Assembly (NCBI GenBank): GCA_003650365.1
Contig: QMPA01000003.1
Coordinates: 1 to 41,918, forward strand
Reading direction: 5' to 3'
Source of the DNA: Bacteroidota bacterium
GTDB lineage: Bacteria; Bacteroidota; Bacteroidia; Bacteroidales; F082
Length of the DNA stretch: 41,918 nt
Program-made: the position numbers and the translations under genes
In this document: piece after piece, positions 530 to 36,855 of the stretch
Position numbering within the stretch: the first letter of the stretch is position 1
How the letters are laid out: each line of letters opens with the position of its first letter
Notes under the pieces: generated by a model
Seen by the model: only the letters and a program-made list of their open reading frames with translations
What the model was told of the DNA's origin: nothing
Databases searched by the model: none

Positions 530-725
530 GTCGGACGACAACCACTAATACGCAAAATCAATAAAGTGGTCAGACGACTAAAGAACAAATAATTGAAACC
601 GTCGTCCGACCACTATAATACGCTAAATCAGCATAGTGGTCAGACGACTAAAAAGCAATTTAATCAAATAATAACAACAGTCGTCTGACCACTATTTTGC
701 GCTGGTGTATTAGTGGTCGGACGAC
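530..725. repeat. Mosaic array of alternating inverted copies of AGTGGTC(A/G)GACGAC
   Basis: Copies read at 565-579(+), 601-614(-), 635-649(+), 679-693(-), 712-725(+), plus a degenerate copy at about 530-546. Confidence 0.9.
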
Positions 726-2879: not shown

Positions 2880-5417
2880 TTGAGATTTAAATCCTTAATA
2901 TTCATACTGATAATATTTGTTATCTCGAATTCGCTTTATGCGCAAAAAGAAGCCAATATTTGGTACTTTGGTGAAAAAGCAGGGCTTGATTTTAGTGCTG
3001 GTAATCCGGTTGCGTTAACTGACGGGCAGATGGATACCTGGGAGGGATGTTCTTCGATTTCTTCCCCAAGCGGAAACCTTTTGTTTTATACTAACGGAAT
3101 TACGGTTTGGAATAAGCAACACACAATAATGCCGAATGGAACGGACTTGATGGGAAATCCTTCCAGTACACAATCGGGTATGATTGTACCTTTCCCCGGT
3201 ACAAATGATAAGGTACTGATATTTACAGTCGACTGGGCTGCCTCTGACCCGCCAGGAGGAGCAAAGGGTTTAAGATATTCGCTGGTTGATCTCACTCTTG
3301 ACGGCGGTCTTGGCGATATTGTTCCGGCAGAAAAAAACATCGAAATATTGGCCCCTGTCTGCGAAAAGGTTACAGCGGTTAATCACAGTAATGGAATAGA
3401 TATTTGGGTGGTAGTAAACAAGTTTGGAACAAATTCCTTTTATGCCTATTTGGTAAGCACTTCAGGCGTAAGCAGCAACCCTGTTATAAGTACCGCCGGT
3501 GATGTGCTAACAGAAACCAATTCGCAAGGCTATATGAAAATTTCTCCTGATGGCAGTTGGCTTGCCAGAGCGAATGGCAGTGGTGGCTCAATAGAAATCT
3601 TTAATTTCGATGCATCAACAGGAATCGTTAGTAATGCCATCAAAGGTACCGGTTTTGGAATACGTAAAATGTACGGTGTGGAGTTTTCACCTGACAGTAA
3701 GAAATTGTATGTAAATACCTGGTATTCGTCTGCGTCAGGTGGTGGCCTTTACCAGTACGACTTGGAGGATAGCAATATTCTTGGCTCCAGGGTTTTTATT
3801 TCCGATTTGCCCGATGGTGCTTTGCAACTGGCTCCAAACAGTAAAATTTATGTGGTAAAAAAGGGACTGTCTTCACTTGCTGTGATTAATCAGCCCAACG
3901 AGAAAGCCCCGGCTTGTAATTTTCAGTTAAATGGGATCAATCTTTCGGGTAAAATTAACCATATGGGACTGCCCCCATTTATCCAATCTTTCTTTAATCT
4001 TGATCTTGATTTTTCTCATACCAATACTTGCTTTGGTGATTCAACGCAGTTTACCCTAATCACTTCAATTACACCCGATTCCGTTTTGTGGGATTTTGGT
4101 GACCCGGCTTCAGGAGTAAACAACACTTCTAAGCTAATCGATCCAAAGCATATATTTAGTATTTCCGGAACGTATACTGTCAAAGTCAAATTATGGTCGC
4201 TAACAGCAGTTGATAGCATAGCCTATGATATTTTAATTTCTGAAATACCAGTTATTAACCTTGGTGACGACACTTCCTTTTGCAGTGGTAGTGAATATGT
4301 TTTAAATGCAGGTCCGGGCCTCACTACTTATTTGTGGTCAACTGGCCAAACCAGCCAGAGTATTCATGTAACAACAGCCGGTACTTATTGGGTAGAGGTA
4401 ACTAATGAGCCAACTTGTCCAGCTAGCGATACCATTGTTTTGGGAATCAACCCAACCTATTCAATACAGATAGATACCAGTATTTGTAAGGGAGAATCCA
4501 TTTATATTGGCGGTGATTATCAAAATGAAGCAGGAATATATTACGATACCCTCCTTACTATTTTGGGATGCGATAGTATTTTTGAGACGAATTTGATAGT
4601 TAATGATTATCTAACATTAAATATTGACACCACCATTTGCCAGGGAGATTCTATTTTATTGGAGGATGCGTATCAAAAAGAGGAAGGAATTTACTACGAT
4701 ACCATCAACAATGTAAATACTTGTGACAGTGTGATTGTTACGGATTTATCTTTAACCGACTATCTGACGAAAAACAAAGAAACTATTATTTGTGATGGCG
4801 ATTCTGTTTTTCTGGAAGGTGCCTACCGCAGCGATGAAGGAATATATTATGATACAATAATAAATATTGAGACTTGCGATAGTTTACTGATTACACAATT
4901 GTTCGTCGATCCTTTACCAACAGTATCTTTGGGAAATGACACCACCATTCTGGAAGGTGACGTACTTCTGCTTGATGCCACTTTTCCCGATGCCGAATAC
5001 CTTTGGCAGGATGGTTTTACCGGGGCTATTTATGCTGCTTCCGATTCAGGCTGGTATTGGGTAGAAGTAAGTACGCATTGCGGGTTGGCTATCGATTCAC
5101 TTTATTTTGATTATTATATTGACCTGGATTGCTTTGTTACTGTTCCTAATGCGTTCACGCCTAATGGCGATGGAAAAAATGACACCTTTAAACCAATACT
5201 TAATTGCGATGCTACCGTTTACGAGTTTAGTGTTTTTAACCGTTGGGGCGAAATGGTTTTTACAAGCGACAATCAAGTAGAAGGGTGGGATGGAGGTAGT
5301 AGTAAAACAGCCGATCCTCCAGATGTATATGTTTGGCAACTGGTTTATAAAATCCAGATAAATATTAATAAATTCATCGAAAGTGCAGAAAAAGGGACAG
5401 TTACTCTGGTGAGATAA
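2880..5417 (+). CDS. Secreted beta-propeller/PKD protein with T9SS type B (CHU_C / gliding-motility type) C-terminal domain
   Basis: Signal peptide; PKD-like VLWDFGDPASG; C-term NAFTPNGDGKNDTFKP...FNRWGEMVF...GWDGG. Confidence 0.85.
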   Translation: MRFKSLIFILIIFVISNSLYAQKEANIWYFGEKAGLDFSAGNPVALTDGQMDTWEGCSSISSPSGNLLFYTNGITVWNKQHTIMPNGTDLMGNPSSTQSGMIVPFPGTNDKVLIFTVDWAASDPPGGAKGLRYSLVDLTLDGGLGDIVPAEKNIEILAPVCEKVTAVNHSNGIDIWVVVNKFGTNSFYAYLVSTSGVSSNPVISTAGDVLTETNSQGYMKISPDGSWLARANGSGGSIEIFNFDASTGIVSNAIKGTGFGIRKMYGVEFSPDSKKLYVNTWYSSASGGGLYQYDLEDSNILGSRVFISDLPDGALQLAPNSKIYVVKKGLSSLAVINQPNEKAPACNFQLNGINLSGKINHMGLPPFIQSFFNLDLDFSHTNTCFGDSTQFTLITSITPDSVLWDFGDPASGVNNTSKLIDPKHIFSISGTYTVKVKLWSLTAVDSIAYDILISEIPVINLGDDTSFCSGSEYVLNAGPGLTTYLWSTGQTSQSIHVTTAGTYWVEVTNEPTCPASDTIVLGINPTYSIQIDTSICKGESIYIGGDYQNEAGIYYDTLLTILGCDSIFETNLIVNDYLTLNIDTTICQGDSILLEDAYQKEEGIYYDTINNVNTCDSVIVTDLSLTDYLTKNKETIICDGDSVFLEGAYRSDEGIYYDTIINIETCDSLLITQLFVDPLPTVSLGNDTTILEGDVLLLDATFPDAEYLWQDGFTGAIYAASDSGWYWVEVSTHCGLAIDSLYFDYYIDLDCFVTVPNAFTPNGDGKNDTFKPILNCDATVYEFSVFNRWGEMVFTSDNQVEGWDGGSSKTADPPDVYVWQLVYKIQININKFIESAEKGTVTLVR

Positions 5418-9405: not shown

Positions 9406-10542
9406 TTAATTACTATCGTTCAACTCTTTTAACTTATCATTCATTTTTAATTGAATGTAAATATTTTTTAGTGCAAGTACTGAATATTTATCATTAGGAT
9501 CCAACTCCAAAGCTTTTTCAAAATATGGCATGGCTTGCTTTAACTCAACATTCCCCTTCTCGACCAATTCTTCATATTTCGTCACTTCGTTTAACGGAAG
9601 ATCTTTGGCTTCATCTAGGTAAGCTTTACCTTCGTTACTGTATATGGCTCCGATATTGTAATAAACACTGGAATTCTCTCCTCCAAGATCAATGGTTTTT
9701 TGATAATACTCTAATGCTTTTTCGTACTCACCATCATTGTCATAAGTTTGACCTAGAATCAGATACAGATTCGGATTCTCTTTGTCGGCATCAATGGCAG
9801 ACAACAAAGCTTCTCTGAGTTTATCATTATTCCCCGTTTCGAGATAAATCTGAGCCAATTCAAGCATTAAGCTAAGATCATCAGGATATTTAAGCCTTCC
9901 TTTTTCGATAACTTGTAAAGCTTTGGTAGTATCCCCCAATTGCTTAACAGATTTGCTATAAAACTTATAAATCCTGGCATCATTATAGTCCATTTCAATA
10001 CATTTTTCAAGGTATTTAGTAGCAACTTCTTGATTATCAGCCCAAACACCAGACATACCCGCATAAAACGCTGCTGTAGTATCATACCTGCCTTCAAGTT
10101 CTGAAATAGCAACTACATTTATATAGCCATTAATAGCAACATCGTAATCTCTATTGTTATACCCTTCTCCTGCAAGCTTGTAATATAAATTTGTAAGGTT
10201 ATACAGGTTTAATGCAAGTTCTCCTTCATAAGTATTTTTTGGATCGTATTTTTTAACATTAATGAATGATTCAAAGGCTATATCAGCAGCATTCTCAGAT
10301 AAGCCTTTGACTTCTGCGTCTTCTGAAACAGCAATATTGTAATAAATTTCACCTCGGTACAACCATGTCTTCGCGTCATGCATTGTTTTTTCGTGTAAAA
10401 TGGCTACGTCAATAACTTCTTTTGCTTTCTTGTATTCTCCGTTTTTATTGTACATATAGGCACTGGTCCGTTTGTTTTTTTGTGCCTGCATACCCATACT
10501 GACCAAAAGGCTTAAGCCTAAAAGAATTGCTATTTTTTTCAT
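9406..10542 (-). CDS. Tetratricopeptide repeat protein, secreted
   Basis: Signal peptide and multiple TPR motifs (EKALEYYQKTIDLGG, AMPYFEKALELDPND). Confidence 0.85.
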   Translation of the reverse strand: MKKIAILLGLSLLVSMGMQAQKNKRTSAYMYNKNGEYKKAKEVIDVAILHEKTMHDAKTWLYRGEIYYNIAVSEDAEVKGLSENAADIAFESFINVKKYDPKNTYEGELALNLYNLTNLYYKLAGEGYNNRDYDVAINGYINVVAISELEGRYDTTAAFYAGMSGVWADNQEVATKYLEKCIEMDYNDARIYKFYSKSVKQLGDTTKALQVIEKGRLKYPDDLSLMLELAQIYLETGNNDKLREALLSAIDADKENPNLYLILGQTYDNDGEYEKALEYYQKTIDLGGENSSVYYNIGAIYSNEGKAYLDEAKDLPLNEVTKYEELVEKGNVELKQAMPYFEKALELDPNDKYSVLALKNIYIQLKMNDKLKELNDSN

Positions 10543-10677: not shown

Positions 10678-13242
10678 CTACTCCTCCCCTTCTGTTTCCG
10701 GCTGATTTGCAGCGCCTTCCTCAGGCTTTGTAGGATTTTCATCATCTCCATTTTCGTTTTCTTCCTCTAATAGATTCTCAGCATACTCATCAGCAGAGAT
10801 TTCTATTTTTGCCACTGCAGCTATTTCATCACCTTCGTTCAACTTAATCAGTCTTACGCCTTGTGTTGCCCTGCCCATCACACGCATGTCTTCAACAGCC
10901 ATTCGAATGGCAATTCCTGATTTGTTAATAATCATCAGATCATCTTTATCGGTAACATGTTTAATGGCAATTAACGATCCTGTTTTCTCTGTAATGTTAA
11001 GGGTTTTCACACCTTTTCCTCCGCGGTTGGTTATCCGGTAATCATCAACATCAGAGCGTTTACCATATCCTTTTTCAGAAACCACAAGAACACTGTATTC
11101 ATTACTTTCCAGGCAAATCATACCAATTACTTCATCCTTGTTATCCGCCAGTGTTACACCACGAACTCCCGCAGCATTGCGTCCCATCGAGCGTACTTTT
11201 TCTTCATTAAAACGAATGGCCCTGCCAGATTTTTTAGCGAGAATTACTTCATTGTTGCCATCGGTAAGGCGTGCCTCCAACAGCGTGTCACCCTCCCGGA
11301 TTGTTATGGCATTGATACCATTTTGCCGTGGACGTGAATAAGCCTCAAGCGAGGTCTTTTTAATCACACCCTTTTTGGTAGCCAGCATGATGTAATGCGC
11401 ATTAATATAATCCTCGTCCTTGAGGTCCTTGGTATTGATGATGGCTTTTACTTTATCGTCAACAGGAATATGAATGAGGTTTTGAATAGCCCTTCCTTTT
11501 GAAGTTTTTGCCCCTTCCGGGATTTCAAATACACGCATCCAGAAAACTTTCCCTTTTTCGGTAAAGAACAGCATGTAATTGTGGTTGGTTGCAACAAAAA
11601 GGTGTTCAAGAAAGTCTTCGTTCCTGGTGGTGCTTCCACGGGAACCACGCCCTCCCCTTTTCTGCTGGCGGTATTCGGTAAGTGGTGTGCGTTTTATATA
11701 CCCCATATGCGAAATGGTAATCACTACTTTTTCGTCAGGGATAATATCTTCCATACGAATATCTTCAGCAGTATAAACAACCTGTGAACGACGTTCGTCA
11801 CCGTATTTTTCTTTAATCCGGATAAGTTCATCTTTGATGATTCCCATTCGGATTTCCTTACTTCCCAATATTTCTTTCAGACGTGTGATCAGTTCCATTA
11901 AAGCTTCATAATCCGACTTTATTTTGTCTCTTTCCAGTCCGGTTAATTTTTGAAGGCGCATATCCAAAATGGCTTTGGCCTGAAGCTCGCTTAGATTAAA
12001 AGAACTCATCAAACCGTTTCTTGCATCTTCGGGCGTTTTCGAAGCCCTGATCAGGGCGATTACTGCATCCAGATTATCGAGTGCAACAAGCAGGCCTTCA
12101 AGAATATGGGCTTTGCGTTCGGCTTCTTTCAGTTCATATTCGGTACGCCGGGTAACAACTTCGTGACGGTGTTCCACAAAATAATGGATCATGTCTTTCA
12201 GGTTGAGCATTTTCGGCCGGCCATTTACCAATGCAATATTGTTTACACTAAATGAACTCTGAAGTGCAGTCTGCTGATAAAGTTTGTTAATAACAATACT
12301 CGGAATGGAATCTCTTTTCAAGTCGTAAACAATACGCATTCCATTTCTGTCCGACTCATCATTAATGTCTGAAATACCTATCAACTTCTTTTCGTTGACA
12401 AGATCGGCTGTTTTGCGGATCATTTCAGCTTTGTTCACCATATAGGGTACTGAAGTGGCAATAATACGTTCCTTGCCTGTTTTTGTCTCTTCAACATGAA
12501 CTTCGCCACGCATCATCACGCGCCCCCTGCCGGTTTCAAATGCACTAACCACGCCTTCGTAGCCATAAATAATACCACCGGTTGGAAAATCGGGTGCCTG
12601 AACCAACTTGATCAAGTCTCCAATTTCAATTTCGTTGTCATCAATATAGGCTAGTGTTCCGTCAATTACCTGTGACAGATTGTGTGGTGCCATATTGGTG
12701 GCCATTCCCACTGCAATTCCTGATGCACCGTTAATGAGTAAATTTGGGATTTGTGTAGGTAATACAGTTGGTTCTTGAAGTGTATCATCAAAGTTTGGCC
12801 TGTGATCGACCGTATCTTTGTCAATATCAACCAGCATTTCTTCAGCAATCTTTCTCAACCTGACCTCGGTATAACGCATGGCAGCAGGATTGTCGCCATC
12901 AATAGATCCAAAGTTTCCCTGTCCCTGTACCAATGGGTAGCGCAACGACCAGTCCTGGGCCATCCGTACCATTGAGTCATAAACTGAAGTATCACCATGT
13001 GGATGGTATTTACCAAGCACCTCCCCTACTATTCTTGCCGATTTTTTATACGGTCGATTTGAATAAACACCCAATTCGTGCATGCCGAACAATACCCTGC
13101 GGTGTACTGGTTTTAAACCATCCCTAACATCAGGTAAAGCCCTGGAAACAATGACCGACATCGAATAATCGATGTAGGCCGACTTCATCTGATTCTCTAT
13201 ATTTACTTTAACAATTCTCTCCTGTTGAAATTCACTTTCCAT
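10678..13242 (-). CDS. gyrA: DNA gyrase subunit A
   Basis: [47 protein letters not shown], GyrA-box-like QKRGGRG, acidic C-terminal tail. Confidence 0.97.
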
Positions 13243-31548: not shown

Positions 31549-31974
31549 ATGTTATCTAAAAATCAAGCCAAATTATTTTTTCTGGGAGGCACGGTTGTGT
31601 TCTTCCTGATTTTTCTGGTTCTCTCGGCACATACTTTGTCGAGTGGGATTCCGAAAAAAACCCATTCTGAAAATGTTACAGCAGAAGTTGCAGCCGGAAA
31701 AGTATTATTCGACGAAAACAACTGTATGGGTTGTCACACTATTTTAGGCGAAGGTGCTTACTATGCTCCCGAACTCACCAAAGTAATGGACCGCCGCGGC
31801 GAAGGATTTGTAAAAGCCGTTTTGTCGTCAAAAACACCATGGACCACAACCGGTCGGAAGATGGTTGCCTACGATTTTACTGAAGAAGAGGTCAGTAACC
31901 TGATTGCCTTCTTTACCTGGATCGGCCAAATGGATTTGAATGGCTTTCCACCTGAACCAGACCTGAAGAAATAA
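31549..31974 (+). CDS. norC: Nitric oxide reductase subunit C (membrane-anchored cytochrome c)
   Basis: N-terminal TM, CMGCH haem-c motif, GEGAYYAPELT; adjacent to norB. Confidence 0.93.
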   Translation: MLSKNQAKLFFLGGTVVFFLIFLVLSAHTLSSGIPKKTHSENVTAEVAAGKVLFDENNCMGCHTILGEGAYYAPELTKVMDRRGEGFVKAVLSSKTPWTTTGRKMVAYDFTEEEVSNLIAFFTWIGQMDLNGFPPEPDLKK

Positions 31975-32008
31975 TAAACCAAATTAATCACATTTAAGAA
32001 AAAGAAAT

Positions 32009-33349
32009 ATGAAATATAAATCTCAAAAGGTAGCCTATTGGTTTTTTGCACTGAGTATGGTGCTACTGATCTTACAAATTGTTTACGGTTTTATCATGGC
32101 TTTTGCACATGCCGGTTATGATGGCCTCCACGAAATTATCCCTTTCAATACAGCAACTGCCACCCACAAAAACCTGCTTGTAGTATGGTTGTTAAGTGGA
32201 TTTATGGGAGCTGCTTATTATATTATCCCCGAAGAATCGCAACGCGAATTGGTATCAGTTCCGCTTGCAAAATTACAATTTTGGGCACTTGCCATCGTTG
32301 GTGTTGTTGCTGTTGCCGGCTTTCATGTTGGCTGGTGGGAAGGACGTAAATTCCTCGAAATCCCCCGTTTTTTGGATTACCTTGTCGTAGTGGATATACT
32401 GCTGTTTCTGGGTATTATTTTTGTTACTATTTTCAAAGGAAAGGAAAAAACAACAACAGAAATGGTGTTGGCGATGGGTCTGTTTTTTGCTGCCTTGCTT
32501 TATCTTCCCGGTATGATTTGGTTTGACAACCAGTCCGTTGATTCATTCTTCCGATGGTGGGTTGTTCACCTTTGGGTTGAAGGTGTTTGGGAACTCATCA
32601 TGGGTGGTATTCTTGCCTTCCTGCTGATTAAACTTACCGGTGTTGACCGTGAACTTATTGAGAAATGGTTGTACGTTATTGTTGGACTGACTTTCCTTTC
32701 GGGAATCCTGGGAACAGGACACCACTATTATTATATAGGAGTGCCTGAATACTGGTTAATGATTGGTGGTATTTTTTCCGCATTGGAGCCACTGGCATTC
32801 CTTGGAATGGCTTTGTTTGCATTCGCCATGTATCGCAAAGGCGAGAAAAACCACCCCAATAAAACTGCATTATACTGGACATTGGGAGCAGCAATTATGT
32901 CGTTTGCAGGTGCCGGCCTCTTGGGTATTGCACACACCATCCCTTCAGTGAACATGTGGACACACGGAACATTGATAACAGCCATGCACGGACACATGGC
33001 TTTCTGGGGTGCTTATGCCATGATGGTTTTTGCAATCATCTCTTATGCAATGCCACTAATGACCGGAAGAAAATTATACAATACCGCAGGATCCAGTTAC
33101 GCATTCTGGTTGTCGAATATTGGCATGATTGGAATGACGACAGCTTTTGCAACCGCAGGTGTTGCCCAGGTATATCTTGAAAGAAAAGTAGGTATGTCGT
33201 TTATGGAAGCACAAATGGCAATTGAGGTGCACTTTTGGGTGTTGATTGCCTCAGCAACGCTGTTTACCATCGGTATTATTTATTATGTCATTAATTTCTT
33301 CCAGCATGGAATGCCTACCGACGAGGCACTTGTAGAAAATATTGACTAA
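32009..33349 (+). CDS. norB: Nitric oxide reductase subunit B (cNOR catalytic subunit)
   Basis: ATHKNLLVVWLLSGFMGAAYYIIPEE, HLWVEGVWELIMGG, GTGHHYYYIGVPEYW, MHGHMAFWGAYAMM. Confidence 0.95.
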   Translation: MKYKSQKVAYWFFALSMVLLILQIVYGFIMAFAHAGYDGLHEIIPFNTATATHKNLLVVWLLSGFMGAAYYIIPEESQRELVSVPLAKLQFWALAIVGVVAVAGFHVGWWEGRKFLEIPRFLDYLVVVDILLFLGIIFVTIFKGKEKTTTEMVLAMGLFFAALLYLPGMIWFDNQSVDSFFRWWVVHLWVEGVWELIMGGILAFLLIKLTGVDRELIEKWLYVIVGLTFLSGILGTGHHYYYIGVPEYWLMIGGIFSALEPLAFLGMALFAFAMYRKGEKNHPNKTALYWTLGAAIMSFAGAGLLGIAHTIPSVNMWTHGTLITAMHGHMAFWGAYAMMVFAIISYAMPLMTGRKLYNTAGSSYAFWLSNIGMIGMTTAFATAGVAQVYLERKVGMSFMEAQMAIEVHFWVLIASATLFTIGIIYYVINFFQHGMPTDEALVENID

Positions 33350-33370
33350 TCCGAAATCATAAGGAAGTTT

Positions 33371-33378
33371 TACTTTTG
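33371..33378 (+). promoter_or_regulatory. -7 element TACTTTTG in norB-norQ gap
   Basis: TAnnTTTG match directly upstream of a hairpin. Confidence 0.4.
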
Positions 33379-33379
33379 C

Positions 33380-33413
33380 AAGGCTGATTGAAATTTATAA
33401 TTCAATCAGCCTT
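33380..33413 (+). terminator. Perfect 13-bp stem hairpin between norB and norQ
   Basis: AAGGCTGATTGAA-atttataa-TTCAATCAGCCTT followed by TCTTCATT. Confidence 0.7.
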
Positions 33414-33432
33414 TCTTCATTAATCGAATATT

Positions 33433-34215
33433 ATGCATACAAATAACGAACCTTATTACAGACCGGTTGGTAAAGAAATCGAAGTCTTTAATCACTGTTA
33501 TAAAGAAAAACTCCCTGTTTTATTGAAGGGGCCGACAGGAACTGGAAAGACACGATTTTTGGAACACATGGCATTTAAGTTGGATATGAAAATGATAACC
33601 GTTGCCTGTCACGAAGAAACTTCAGCCACTGATTTATTGGGTCGCTTTATTTTGAAAGGGGCAGAAACAATCTGGATGGATGGCCCGCTAACTACGGCTG
33701 TAAAAGAAGGTCATATTATTTATTTGGATGAAATTGCCGAAGCCAGGCCTGATGTAATCGTTGCCATTCACTCGCTCACCGACCACCGCCGGCAATTGTA
33801 TCTTGATAAACTTTCGGATGAACTCAAAGCCCATGACGATTTTATGTTGGTGGCCTCGTTTAATCCGGGTTATCAAAAAGGATTTAAAGAACTGAAACCT
33901 TCTACCAGGCAGCGTTTTGTTTCGATGGCATTTGATTATCCTGACGAAAAACTGGAAGCAGAAATTATTATTAATGAAACCGGTTTGGATGAAAAGGATA
34001 CGAAAAAGCTGGTGAAGATTGCGAACAAAATCCGTAACCTGAAAGAACTGGGATTGATGGAAACTGTCTCAACACGTTTGGTAGTTGATGCTGCTAAACT
34101 GATGCATTCGGGACTAGGCAAACGCTTATCTGTAGAAGTAGGAATGATTCAGCCCCTAACGGATGATGACGAGATACTGCAGGCATTGAAGGACCTTGCA
34201 GATTTGATGATCTAA
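33433..34215 (+). CDS. norQ: MoxR-family AAA+ ATPase NorQ/CbbQ
   Basis: LLKGPTGTGKTRFLEHMA, IYLDEIAEARPDV, FNPGYQKGFKELKPSTRQRF. Confidence 0.92.
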   Translation: MHTNNEPYYRPVGKEIEVFNHCYKEKLPVLLKGPTGTGKTRFLEHMAFKLDMKMITVACHEETSATDLLGRFILKGAETIWMDGPLTTAVKEGHIIYLDEIAEARPDVIVAIHSLTDHRRQLYLDKLSDELKAHDDFMLVASFNPGYQKGFKELKPSTRQRFVSMAFDYPDEKLEAEIIINETGLDEKDTKKLVKIANKIRNLKELGLMETVSTRLVVDAAKLMHSGLGKRLSVEVGMIQPLTDDDEILQALKDLADLMI

Positions 34216-34217
34216 CA

Positions 34218-34250
34218 AGTCAGGGCTTGACTTAAAGTCAAACCCTGACT
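34218..34250. repeat. Near-perfect 33-bp palindrome between norQ and norD
   Basis: AGTCAGGGCTTGACTT-a-AAGTCAAACCCTGACT, 15 of 16 arm positions pair. Confidence 0.93.
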
Positions 34251-34262
34251 GAATACAAAATT

Positions 34263-36020
34263 ATGGAACCCGATCAGGTTATATTCAAAAAGGTTTTCGA
34301 TCTTTTTAAACGGTTTAAAAAAACCGATCCTGAGCTAAGCAATAGAACAGCTACTTTGGATGTGCTGAATGGCCGACTTACACTTATTGCTACTGCTCTG
34401 TGCGGGAGAAAGATCGAAGTGCTTCCTGCAGAACAAGAAGGCGGTTGGAAAGACCATCTTTTTTATATGCCAATAAAATTTTCATTGCTTCCGGAGCTTG
34501 AACAAAACATCAGGTTCTACATCTTTCGCATTGTTTTTCTTTCCATACAGCAGGAGCTGAAATTGAAAAATGACCTGCCTGATATTTCCCTTGAAGATAT
34601 GCGCCAGCAGGCAAAAGAAATCGGAGGGCAGGTTATTGAAGTCATGGAAAACGACTTTCCATCTGTAGCTGAATACTATCATTCCATAAAAGGTTTATTT
34701 GGGACAGCACAAAAAAAGAGTGAAATCATTCCCGATTATTGGTTGTACGGAAAACTGATGAATAGCGATGGTAATTCCCAAAACAAGAAAACCACGAATC
34801 CCGATGGGGATAATGAAGGTCGACAAGAGATAAAACCCAAAACAGAAATTAAAGCCAAGCCTGTTGAAGAAGCGGAAGTGATTAATGTTGACAAGAAAAC
34901 ACAGGAAGACTATGTGATGACCCATAATTTTGAGAAAGTAGATACTGCCGAAGAATTCAAGGGAGTCTGGCGCAATTTTGATGGCGATGACAGTCTTGAG
35001 AAAGATGCCGAAGCTTTGAGTGAACTGAACCTCAAACACCTTGTTCGCACCGATGATGAAGTGCATTCGGTTTACCAGGCCGATTTCAGAGATTTGCAGG
35101 GCATTGCAGAAAGTGGCGACAAAGAAGACGATGGCCACCATATTTGCTATGACGAATGGAATTATCAGAAAAAGCAATACAAACCCAATTATTGTAAAGT
35201 CTATCTAAAATCGATACTTGGCAATAATATGAATTACGCCGCCACTGCCCTTTCGGAAAATGCGGTAACGTTGAATGGCTTGCGCCGAAAATTTGCACAA
35301 ATTCACCAGAAACGCGAATTTGTCAGGCGAATGCCCGATGGTGAGGCGATTGATATGGATGCTGTTGTGGACATGTTTACAGACATCAAATCGGGGCATA
35401 CGCCATCAGAAAATATTTATATCACTAAGCGAAAAAAAGAGCCGGATATTTCCATTTTGTTTCTGGTGGACCTGAGTTTGTCAACTGACAGTTACGCAGC
35501 CGGAAACCGCATTCTTGATGTGGAAAAACAGGCTGTAATCCTTTTTGGGCAAGTACTTCAGGAATATGGTGTTGACTTCGCCATTGGTGGATTTTATTCA
35601 AAAACACGAAACAACTGCGCTTATATTTCTGTGAAAGGATTTAATGACGACTGGAACAAAGCCAAAAGAAATATTGGTGTTGTCGAACCAAGGGGATACA
35701 CACGGATTGGCCCGGCTTTGCGCCATGCCAAATCCTTGATAAGCGATCGTCAGATGCAAAACAAATGGGTAATTCTTTTGTCGGATGGAAAACCCAATGA
35801 TTATGATAAATACGAAGGTCGCTACGGGATTTCTGATGTAAAACAAGCTTTGCGAGAAATGCACGAATACCATATTAATACTTATGCCATTGCCATCGAA
35901 TCGACAGCAAAATATTATTTACCGCAGATGTTTGGGCAAAATCATTACAATATTTTGTCTCATCCCGAAATGCTATTGCAGTCGCTGACAACGCTTTACC
36001 AACGCATCCAAAATCATTAA
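34263..36020 (+). CDS. norD: VWA-domain protein NorD
   Basis: MIDAS-like LFLVDLSLSTDSY, WVILLSDGKPNDYDKYEGRYGISDVKQAL; downstream of norQ. Confidence 0.9.
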   Translation: MEPDQVIFKKVFDLFKRFKKTDPELSNRTATLDVLNGRLTLIATALCGRKIEVLPAEQEGGWKDHLFYMPIKFSLLPELEQNIRFYIFRIVFLSIQQELKLKNDLPDISLEDMRQQAKEIGGQVIEVMENDFPSVAEYYHSIKGLFGTAQKKSEIIPDYWLYGKLMNSDGNSQNKKTTNPDGDNEGRQEIKPKTEIKAKPVEEAEVINVDKKTQEDYVMTHNFEKVDTAEEFKGVWRNFDGDDSLEKDAEALSELNLKHLVRTDDEVHSVYQADFRDLQGIAESGDKEDDGHHICYDEWNYQKKQYKPNYCKVYLKSILGNNMNYAATALSENAVTLNGLRRKFAQIHQKREFVRRMPDGEAIDMDAVVDMFTDIKSGHTPSENIYITKRKKEPDISILFLVDLSLSTDSYAAGNRILDVEKQAVILFGQVLQEYGVDFAIGGFYSKTRNNCAYISVKGFNDDWNKAKRNIGVVEPRGYTRIGPALRHAKSLISDRQMQNKWVILLSDGKPNDYDKYEGRYGISDVKQALREMHEYHINTYAIAIESTAKYYLPQMFGQNHYNILSHPEMLLQSLTTLYQRIQNH

Positions 36021-36021
36021 A

Positions 36022-36609
36022 ATGACAACAACGGATAAAATTCCTGATAAATCTTTTTTATATCCACCGGGGGGAATCCTAATCTGGATAATTGTAATTG
36101 TAGAATTGCTCACTTTCGGAATTGCCCTCATCGTGTTCCGGGTGAATTTTCATCAGGATTACGACACTTTCCTTTCCTCTCAAAATATGCTCAGTAAATA
36201 TATCGGGCTTTTTAATACGATCGTACTTATTACAAGTGGCTACTTTATGGCTACAGCTTTGATGAACATCAAACACGCGAAACAGAAAGAAGCAATTAAA
36301 TGGTTGCTGTTGACGATTCTGACAGGTGTTTTATTCCTATTTGTAAAGGGCTGGGAATACAGCATTAAAATTGCAGAAGGGCATTCCTTCGGATACGATG
36401 ATTTCTTTGATTTTTACTGGATGCTCACCCTCTTCCATTTTATTCATGTCCTTGTCGGGGTGGTCATTTTATCGGTACTGCTGCTCAAATTGCGCCAGGG
36501 TTATTACAACGCTTCAAATTATCTTGACGTTGAAACTGGTGGCGTATTCTGGCATATGTGCGATTTAATCTGGATATTACTCTTTCCTGTTTTATATTTA
36601 CTCCATTAG
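36022..36609 (+). CDS. norE: NorE-like cytochrome c oxidase subunit III family protein
   Basis: Multi-TM; FHFIHVLVGVVILSVLL...GVFWHMCDLIWILLFPVLYL. Confidence 0.88.
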   Translation: MTTTDKIPDKSFLYPPGGILIWIIVIVELLTFGIALIVFRVNFHQDYDTFLSSQNMLSKYIGLFNTIVLITSGYFMATALMNIKHAKQKEAIKWLLLTILTGVLFLFVKGWEYSIKIAEGHSFGYDDFFDFYWMLTLFHFIHVLVGVVILSVLLLKLRQGYYNASNYLDVETGGVFWHMCDLIWILLFPVLYLLH

Positions 36610-36612
36610 AAA

Positions 36613-36855
36613 ATGAATAAGAAAAACACAATTCTCTGGGTAATATTGATGCTATTGATGCTGTTTAATTTTTGGCTGGCAGAAATTTCTCCCATAACCG
36701 GAAAATGGACATTAACAGTTATTTTGTTTGTGACACTGATAAAATTCCTTGGCGTGGCATTTAGGTTCATGGATTTGAAAAACGCCCATAAACATTGGAA
36801 AATCATATTCATCGTTTTCATCCTTTTGTTTTCCGGGCTTGCCGGCTTGATTTAG
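36613..36855 (+). CDS. NorF-like / prokaryotic cytochrome c oxidase subunit IV family protein
   Basis: Two to three TM helices, 80 aa, ITGKWTLTVILFVTLIKFLGVAFRFMDLKNAHKHWK. Confidence 0.75.
   Translation: MNKKNTILWVILMLLMLFNFWLAEISPITGKWTLTVILFVTLIKFLGVAFRFMDLKNAHKHWKIIFIVFILLFSGLAGLI

Follow-up and report, generated by a model that had tools for sequence, protein, structure and literature searches.

An array of alternating inverted repeats between msrA and an ABC-F gene is probably a local cluster of REP/REPIN-type elements of a Bacteroidota RAYT

The array of short inverted repeats between msrA and an ABC-F ATPase gene (530–725 of the window, the 41,918-nt stretch of Bacteroidota DNA analysed here) is most likely, with a probability of about 0.9, a local cluster of REP/REPIN-type miniature mobile elements. 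These would have been spread in trans by a RAYT (TnpA_REP, an HUH transposase) encoded elsewhere in the same genome, at G000:C12:10319–10900, where G000 is the 3.66-Mb assembly to which the window belongs. The reading of the cluster as REP/REPIN of a Bacteroidota RAYT rests on the dispersal of paired arms, on a RAYT gene flanked by these arms and on the relationship of its product to the protein of PDB entry 4er8.

The upstream neighbour of the array is msrA (peptide methionine sulfoxide reductase; 68–526, + strand; PF01625, 1.3e-51) and the downstream neighbour is the ABC-F gene (771–2663, + strand; ABC_tran 7.1e-47, also ABC_tran_Xtn and ABC_tran_CTD), both outside the element. Five exact copies of the arm AGTGGTC(A/G)GACGAC were located, at 565–578 (+), 601–614 (−), 635–648 (+), 680–693 (−) and 712–725 (+), in the strand order that an earlier sequence-only reading of the window had described. 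When up to three mismatches are allowed, the window contains 11 arm matches, whereas 100 dinucleotide shuffles gave 1.75 on average and never more than 6. The array can be read as three units of the form '− arm, loop, + arm' (542–578, 601–648 and 680–725), the third in the opposite orientation. Unit 1 (+ strand) has lost its left arm and consists of the loop TAATACGCAAAATCAATAA followed by the intact + arm at 565–578. Unit 2 (+) is intact, its arms enclosing the loop TATAATACGCTAAATCAGCATA and its central pair, C.A, being mismatched. Unit 3 (−) is likewise intact, lies in the orientation opposite to that of unit 2 and has the loop TATTTTGCGCTGGTGTATTA and the central pair T.G. The degenerate copy at the left edge, proposed from the same reading, is real: positions 530–542 (GTCGGACGACAAC) equal 716–728 with no difference, and by inspection this broken edge (530–546) looks like a + arm remnant (530–539) joined to CCACT (542–546), a − arm remnant. 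The two spacer classes are real as well, one being the loops of 20–22 nt with a TACGC/GCGC core and the other the A-rich stretches that separate units 1 and 2 (579–600) and units 2 and 3 (649–679).

Together with their spacers, units 1 and 2 are a direct repeat (81%, period 70), and tandem duplication thus accounts for at least part of the growth of the array. The predicted DNA fold of the 211-nt array (−47.6 kcal/mol) is far more stable than that of shuffled sequences (−17.2 ± 3.0 kcal/mol; z = −10.2). The A-rich spacers were compared with the RAYT gene for remnants like those between the doublets of the RAYT locus (described below), and the best pairs gave p values of 0.02–0.07 before correction. 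Elsewhere in the window, the ORFs of 31549–36855 resemble, from their translations only, a nitric oxide reductase cluster, with cytochrome c and heme-copper subunits, a MoxR-type ATPase, a von Willebrand-type protein and a protein like cytochrome oxidase subunit III.

Copy numbers were obtained by pattern searches of G000 and of two congeners, G001 and G002. G000 contains 85 exact arms, against none for a reversed-pattern control; with one mismatch and a free centre the count is 170 arms against 12. The arm arrays occupy ∼50 intergenic loci in G000, beside many unrelated genes. Of 144 arms checked, only 10 lie inside an ORF of at least 100 amino acids, compared with 83% of random positions. 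Between co-directional genes, as judged from crude gene calls, the units are in most cases closer to the upstream gene's stop codon. Arms are paired at nearly all loci and form imperfect hairpins, each unit comprising two arms of 13–15 nt that enclose a loop (18–43 nt overall). In the common G000 unit, GTGGTC A GACGAC comes first and GTCGTC C GACCAC second, with some 18 to 20 nt between them. At many loci two inverted units 10–20 nt apart form an opposed doublet of ∼110 nt, whose inner and outer arms are exactly complementary. In a second form of the unit, which includes those of the window, the arms are swapped around a similar loop; this form is what was retrieved from Chryseosolibacter histidini (loop 22–27 nt) and it is dominant in G001 (mostly 38 nt). 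With its ∼50 loci, its opposed pairs and a repeat-flanked RAYT in the genome, the family is well supported as what the sequence-only reading had proposed, dispersed, non-autonomous, palindromic and REP/BIME-like.

The centre of the stem carries a conserved mismatch, and every lineage retains a non-pairing base there: A.C (G.T on the other strand) in 55/60 type-A units of G000, A.A/T.T in 18/19 units of G001 and A.C/G.T in 32/39 units of C. histidini. Covariation had been suggested as a check on the hairpin, and all five two-sided stem changes proved to be complementary; three of them occur in one array, so that they represent ∼3 independent compensated events.

Other palindromes were seen beside or apart from these units. 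A second, related palindrome in G000, AGTCGTCNGATG ... AAATCCGTAGGACCACT, shares the arm ends, has a different inner stem and often adjoins the main units (L042 930–975, L051 940–985, L073 1068–1102 and L231 1300–1338). Many C. histidini units (L149, L165, L173, L192, L194 and L205) adjoin a second repeat type, CGGTCCACGG / CCGTGGACCG, which looks like insertion into or beside another palindrome. One other genus of the family has a minimal hairpin (L087, G018:C38, 1808–1838), a single perfect arm pair around only 5 nt, AGTGGTCGGACGAC ATGAA GTCGTCCGACCACT.

The sequence-only reading was right that the window lacks a RAYT, yet this absence reflects only the window's size; the search for a RAYT/Y1 transposase located one in the same genome with arms on both sides. 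The Pfam Y1_Tnp profile (PF01797) found 38 genes in seven genomes, none with an adjacent arm at up to one mismatch, which suggested that the repeats were orphans. That idea was overturned at locus L151 of a Sphingobacteriales MAG, where the stretch separating two arm arrays was found on reading to encode a 200-aa protein with the motifs NHFH and YIHQNP. Its homologue in G000 is a 193-aa RAYT-type HUH transposase (C12:10319–10900) with one arm array on each side (9976–10304 and 10899–11090); the gene overlaps the downstream arm by two bases, which close its TAG stop codon and open that arm. Flanking of the RAYT by the same arm was also found in C. histidini (G041), in the Sphingobacteriales MAG (G043, two copies, the second with partly decayed arms) and in MAG RYN_297 (G440). 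A homologue search found no close RAYT in G001 or G002, though both carry the repeats, which may be orphaned there, or the gene may be missing from the draft genomes. More distant homologues were without arms, and three fairly close ones had none in the DNA examined around them (L234, near a contig end; L235, with an internal stop; L236, short).

The G000 protein matches REP_Tyr_transpos with an E-value of 8e-14 and has no Pfam Y1_Tnp match. Against the NCBIfam model NF047646 (REP_Tyr_transpos) the proteins score 52–75 bits, that of G000 51.7 bits, and the curated (equivalog) cut-off of 80 is not reached. A profile of the RAYT family gave a single match in the PDB, 4er8 (E. coli TnpA_REP), at an E-value of 2e-4, and the catalytic NHFH and YIHQNP motifs are invariant in six homologues. 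An AlphaFold model of the RAYT made from two sequences had a mean pLDDT of 43 and was unusable. In a phylum-wide sample, RAYTs of the G000 family were present in 105 of 396 genomes, and most of those examined had their own flanking palindromes, whose arms differ in sequence. Arm sequence does not strictly track RAYT similarity, as a 52% identical RAYT (L280) has other repeats and a 44% identical one (L233) has the same arm; the backbone of the RAYT tree is unresolved and the arm-flanked label needs about 3 changes on it.

Several further RAYT-like sequences came to light around these loci. Between neighbouring doublets of the G000 RAYT locus (L231, G000:C12:8819–12394), two pieces (1264–1380 and 2183–2226) join the start of the RAYT frame to its end and are internally deleted copies of the gene, the first also containing another palindrome. 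Another RAYT-like gene (L040, G000:C282:2845–4774, ORF 1132–1779, − strand) carries in-frame inserts of HAENPRAS repeats that recur in a neighbouring ORF, apparently a different repeat family within coding sequence. In L281 (G690, 1237–2719), a RAYT sharing 50% identity with the G000 protein has near-identical flanking arms, CTCGTCCGACCAC / GTGGTCCGACGAA, ∼80 nt apart, intermediate between the G000 arm type and other arm types.

Beyond G000, the arm was counted 36 times in G001 and 17 times in G002, and it is nearly absent from the remaining family and order. Among 394 other genomes sampled evenly from the class, two had one arm match each and the others had none. A scan of 84,980 species genomes with a two-arm pattern, which queried only the swapped-arm form found in the window, gave matches confined to Bacteroidota; the carriers were C. 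histidini (>30 loci), both congeners and a few other MAGs. Such a patchy distribution of a fixed arm is as would be expected for a mobile element with some horizontal spread.

A rival explanation is that the array acts in cis as an RNA element of the ABC-F leader, serving as an attenuator or as a stability hairpin. The array is upstream of and co-directional with that gene and folds strongly, and ABC-F genes often have regulatory leaders. The same elements, however, lie at ∼50 loci beside unrelated genes, their position in co-directional pairs favours the upstream gene's stop codon, and no Rfam family was matched at its gathering score, all matches being far below. The orthologous region of G002 also speaks against a conserved leader, at least in the one ortholog compared. 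There, msrA is still followed by the ABC-F gene (79% identical), and the spacer of ∼93 nt contains one decayed unit, AGTCGCCCGGCCAC ... TTCTGACAACT, rather than a clean empty site. The unit thus probably predates the split of the two species, and the array would have expanded in G000. In G001 the sequence 3′ of msrA, read from its translation, resembles instead the window ORF at 2880–5417, so that both the ABC-F gene and the array are absent there. A leader RNA, which the sequence-only reading had offered as its other option, is accordingly very improbable; as far as these comparisons go, the array is not a conserved part of ABC-F control, and any influence on expression of msrA or the ABC-F gene is probably incidental.

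Two further explanations account for the arms without a leader function, and both are highly unlikely. If the arms were the terminal inverted repeats of a MITE derived from a DDE-type insertion sequence, inverted repeats of 13–15 nt around 18–43 nt and a patchy distribution would be natural. This was rejected, since inspection of the listed flanks by eye revealed no consistent target duplication and no gene other than a RAYT was found between arm arrays; opposed doublets and shared arrays are, moreover, typical of REPs. Alternatively, the arm could be a dyad site for a protein that binds double-stranded DNA, the hairpin being a by-product: the arm AGTSGTCNGACSACT is itself symmetric at 6/7 position pairs and is identical between lineages whose loops differ completely. 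Against this, the near absence of the arm from other genomes of the class is more in keeping with a mobile element than with a conserved cellular site, a RAYT gene is flanked by arms, and double changes in the stem are compensated between arms.

Among described systems, the REP/REPIN-type elements and RAYT of G000 best fit TnpA_Y1 subclass 2.6, equivalent to RAYT group 5, a tentative assignment based on phylum, protein size, the Tyr motif and flanking palindromes that are not of the GTAG type. The published RAYTs of this Bacteroidetes group are bordered by 'atypical secondary structures' outside the GTAG rule; they have a mean length of 179 aa, the signature NH[LIV]H ... YIH[QN]NP and no free GT[AG]G foot (PMC6006769). 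The G000 system is alike in phylum, in size (193 aa), in the YIH[QN]NP-type W/Y motifs, and in gene-flanking palindromes that lack a free GT[AG]G foot and have copies elsewhere in the genome, but it has NHFH as its HUH motif where the subclass has NH[LIV]H. The likeness of the repeats to those of subclass 2.6, described only as atypical secondary structures (PMC6006769), is judged from that description.

The better known REPINs and BIMEs of gamma-proteobacteria (E. coli and Pseudomonas; RAYT groups 2 and 3) share with the present elements imperfect intergenic palindromes, opposed doublets, mosaic arrays and a cognate RAYT flanked by repeats, and the E. coli REP also has a stem mismatch, needed there for activity (PMC8266576). 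They differ in the unpaired GT[AG]G foot of classical REPs, as here GTGG occurs only inside the paired arm, in the subclass of the RAYT and in the loop, which is longer here (18–43 nt). CGTC-tagged REPs, reported in Bacteroidetes among other phyla, are likewise short palindromic repeats that form head-to-head dimers; they have stems of 8–9 bp, loops of 4–5 nt, an unpaired CGTC tag and no dedicated transposase (PMC3733652). With stems of 13–15 bp, loops of 18–43 nt and an arm-flanked RAYT, the G000 elements do not belong to this type.

A mechanism can be proposed by analogy with TnpA_REP, which acts strand-specifically, binding and cutting REP hairpins in single-stranded DNA, and which in E. 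coli requires the stem mismatch (PMC8266576). By the same action, the G000 RAYT would recognize one strand of the hairpin while the DNA is single-stranded, probably in the course of replication, through the arm sequence and the central mismatch. The mismatch and the two asymmetric positions of the arm could let the enzyme tell the strands apart, and its HUH and Tyr residues would nick and rejoin the hairpin, moving or copying the unit. An ancestral unit between msrA and the ABC-F gene would then have become the present array by tandem duplication with a period of 70 and the addition of an opposed unit.

The kind of element, REP plus RAYT, is already known; the present case is a well-supported new member of it and makes explicit a candidate substrate for a poorly described group of RAYTs. 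A Bacteroidota RAYT repeat is now defined base by base, with its copy number, architecture and cognate gene, the last documented at five loci spread over four genomes that include an isolate (C. histidini). A search with Pfam Y1_Tnp alone can miss such a RAYT, and the repeats then look orphaned. A more speculative and rather unlikely proposal is that a single RAYT–repeat system, whose 15-nt near-palindromic arm is fixed, passes horizontally among distant Bacteroidota, its enzyme tolerating both arm orders around the same loop; if true, its mode of recognition would be unlike that of GTAG-guided REPs. The G000 RAYT and its repeats thus provide a concrete candidate enzyme–substrate pair for studying how non-GTAG REPs are recognized.
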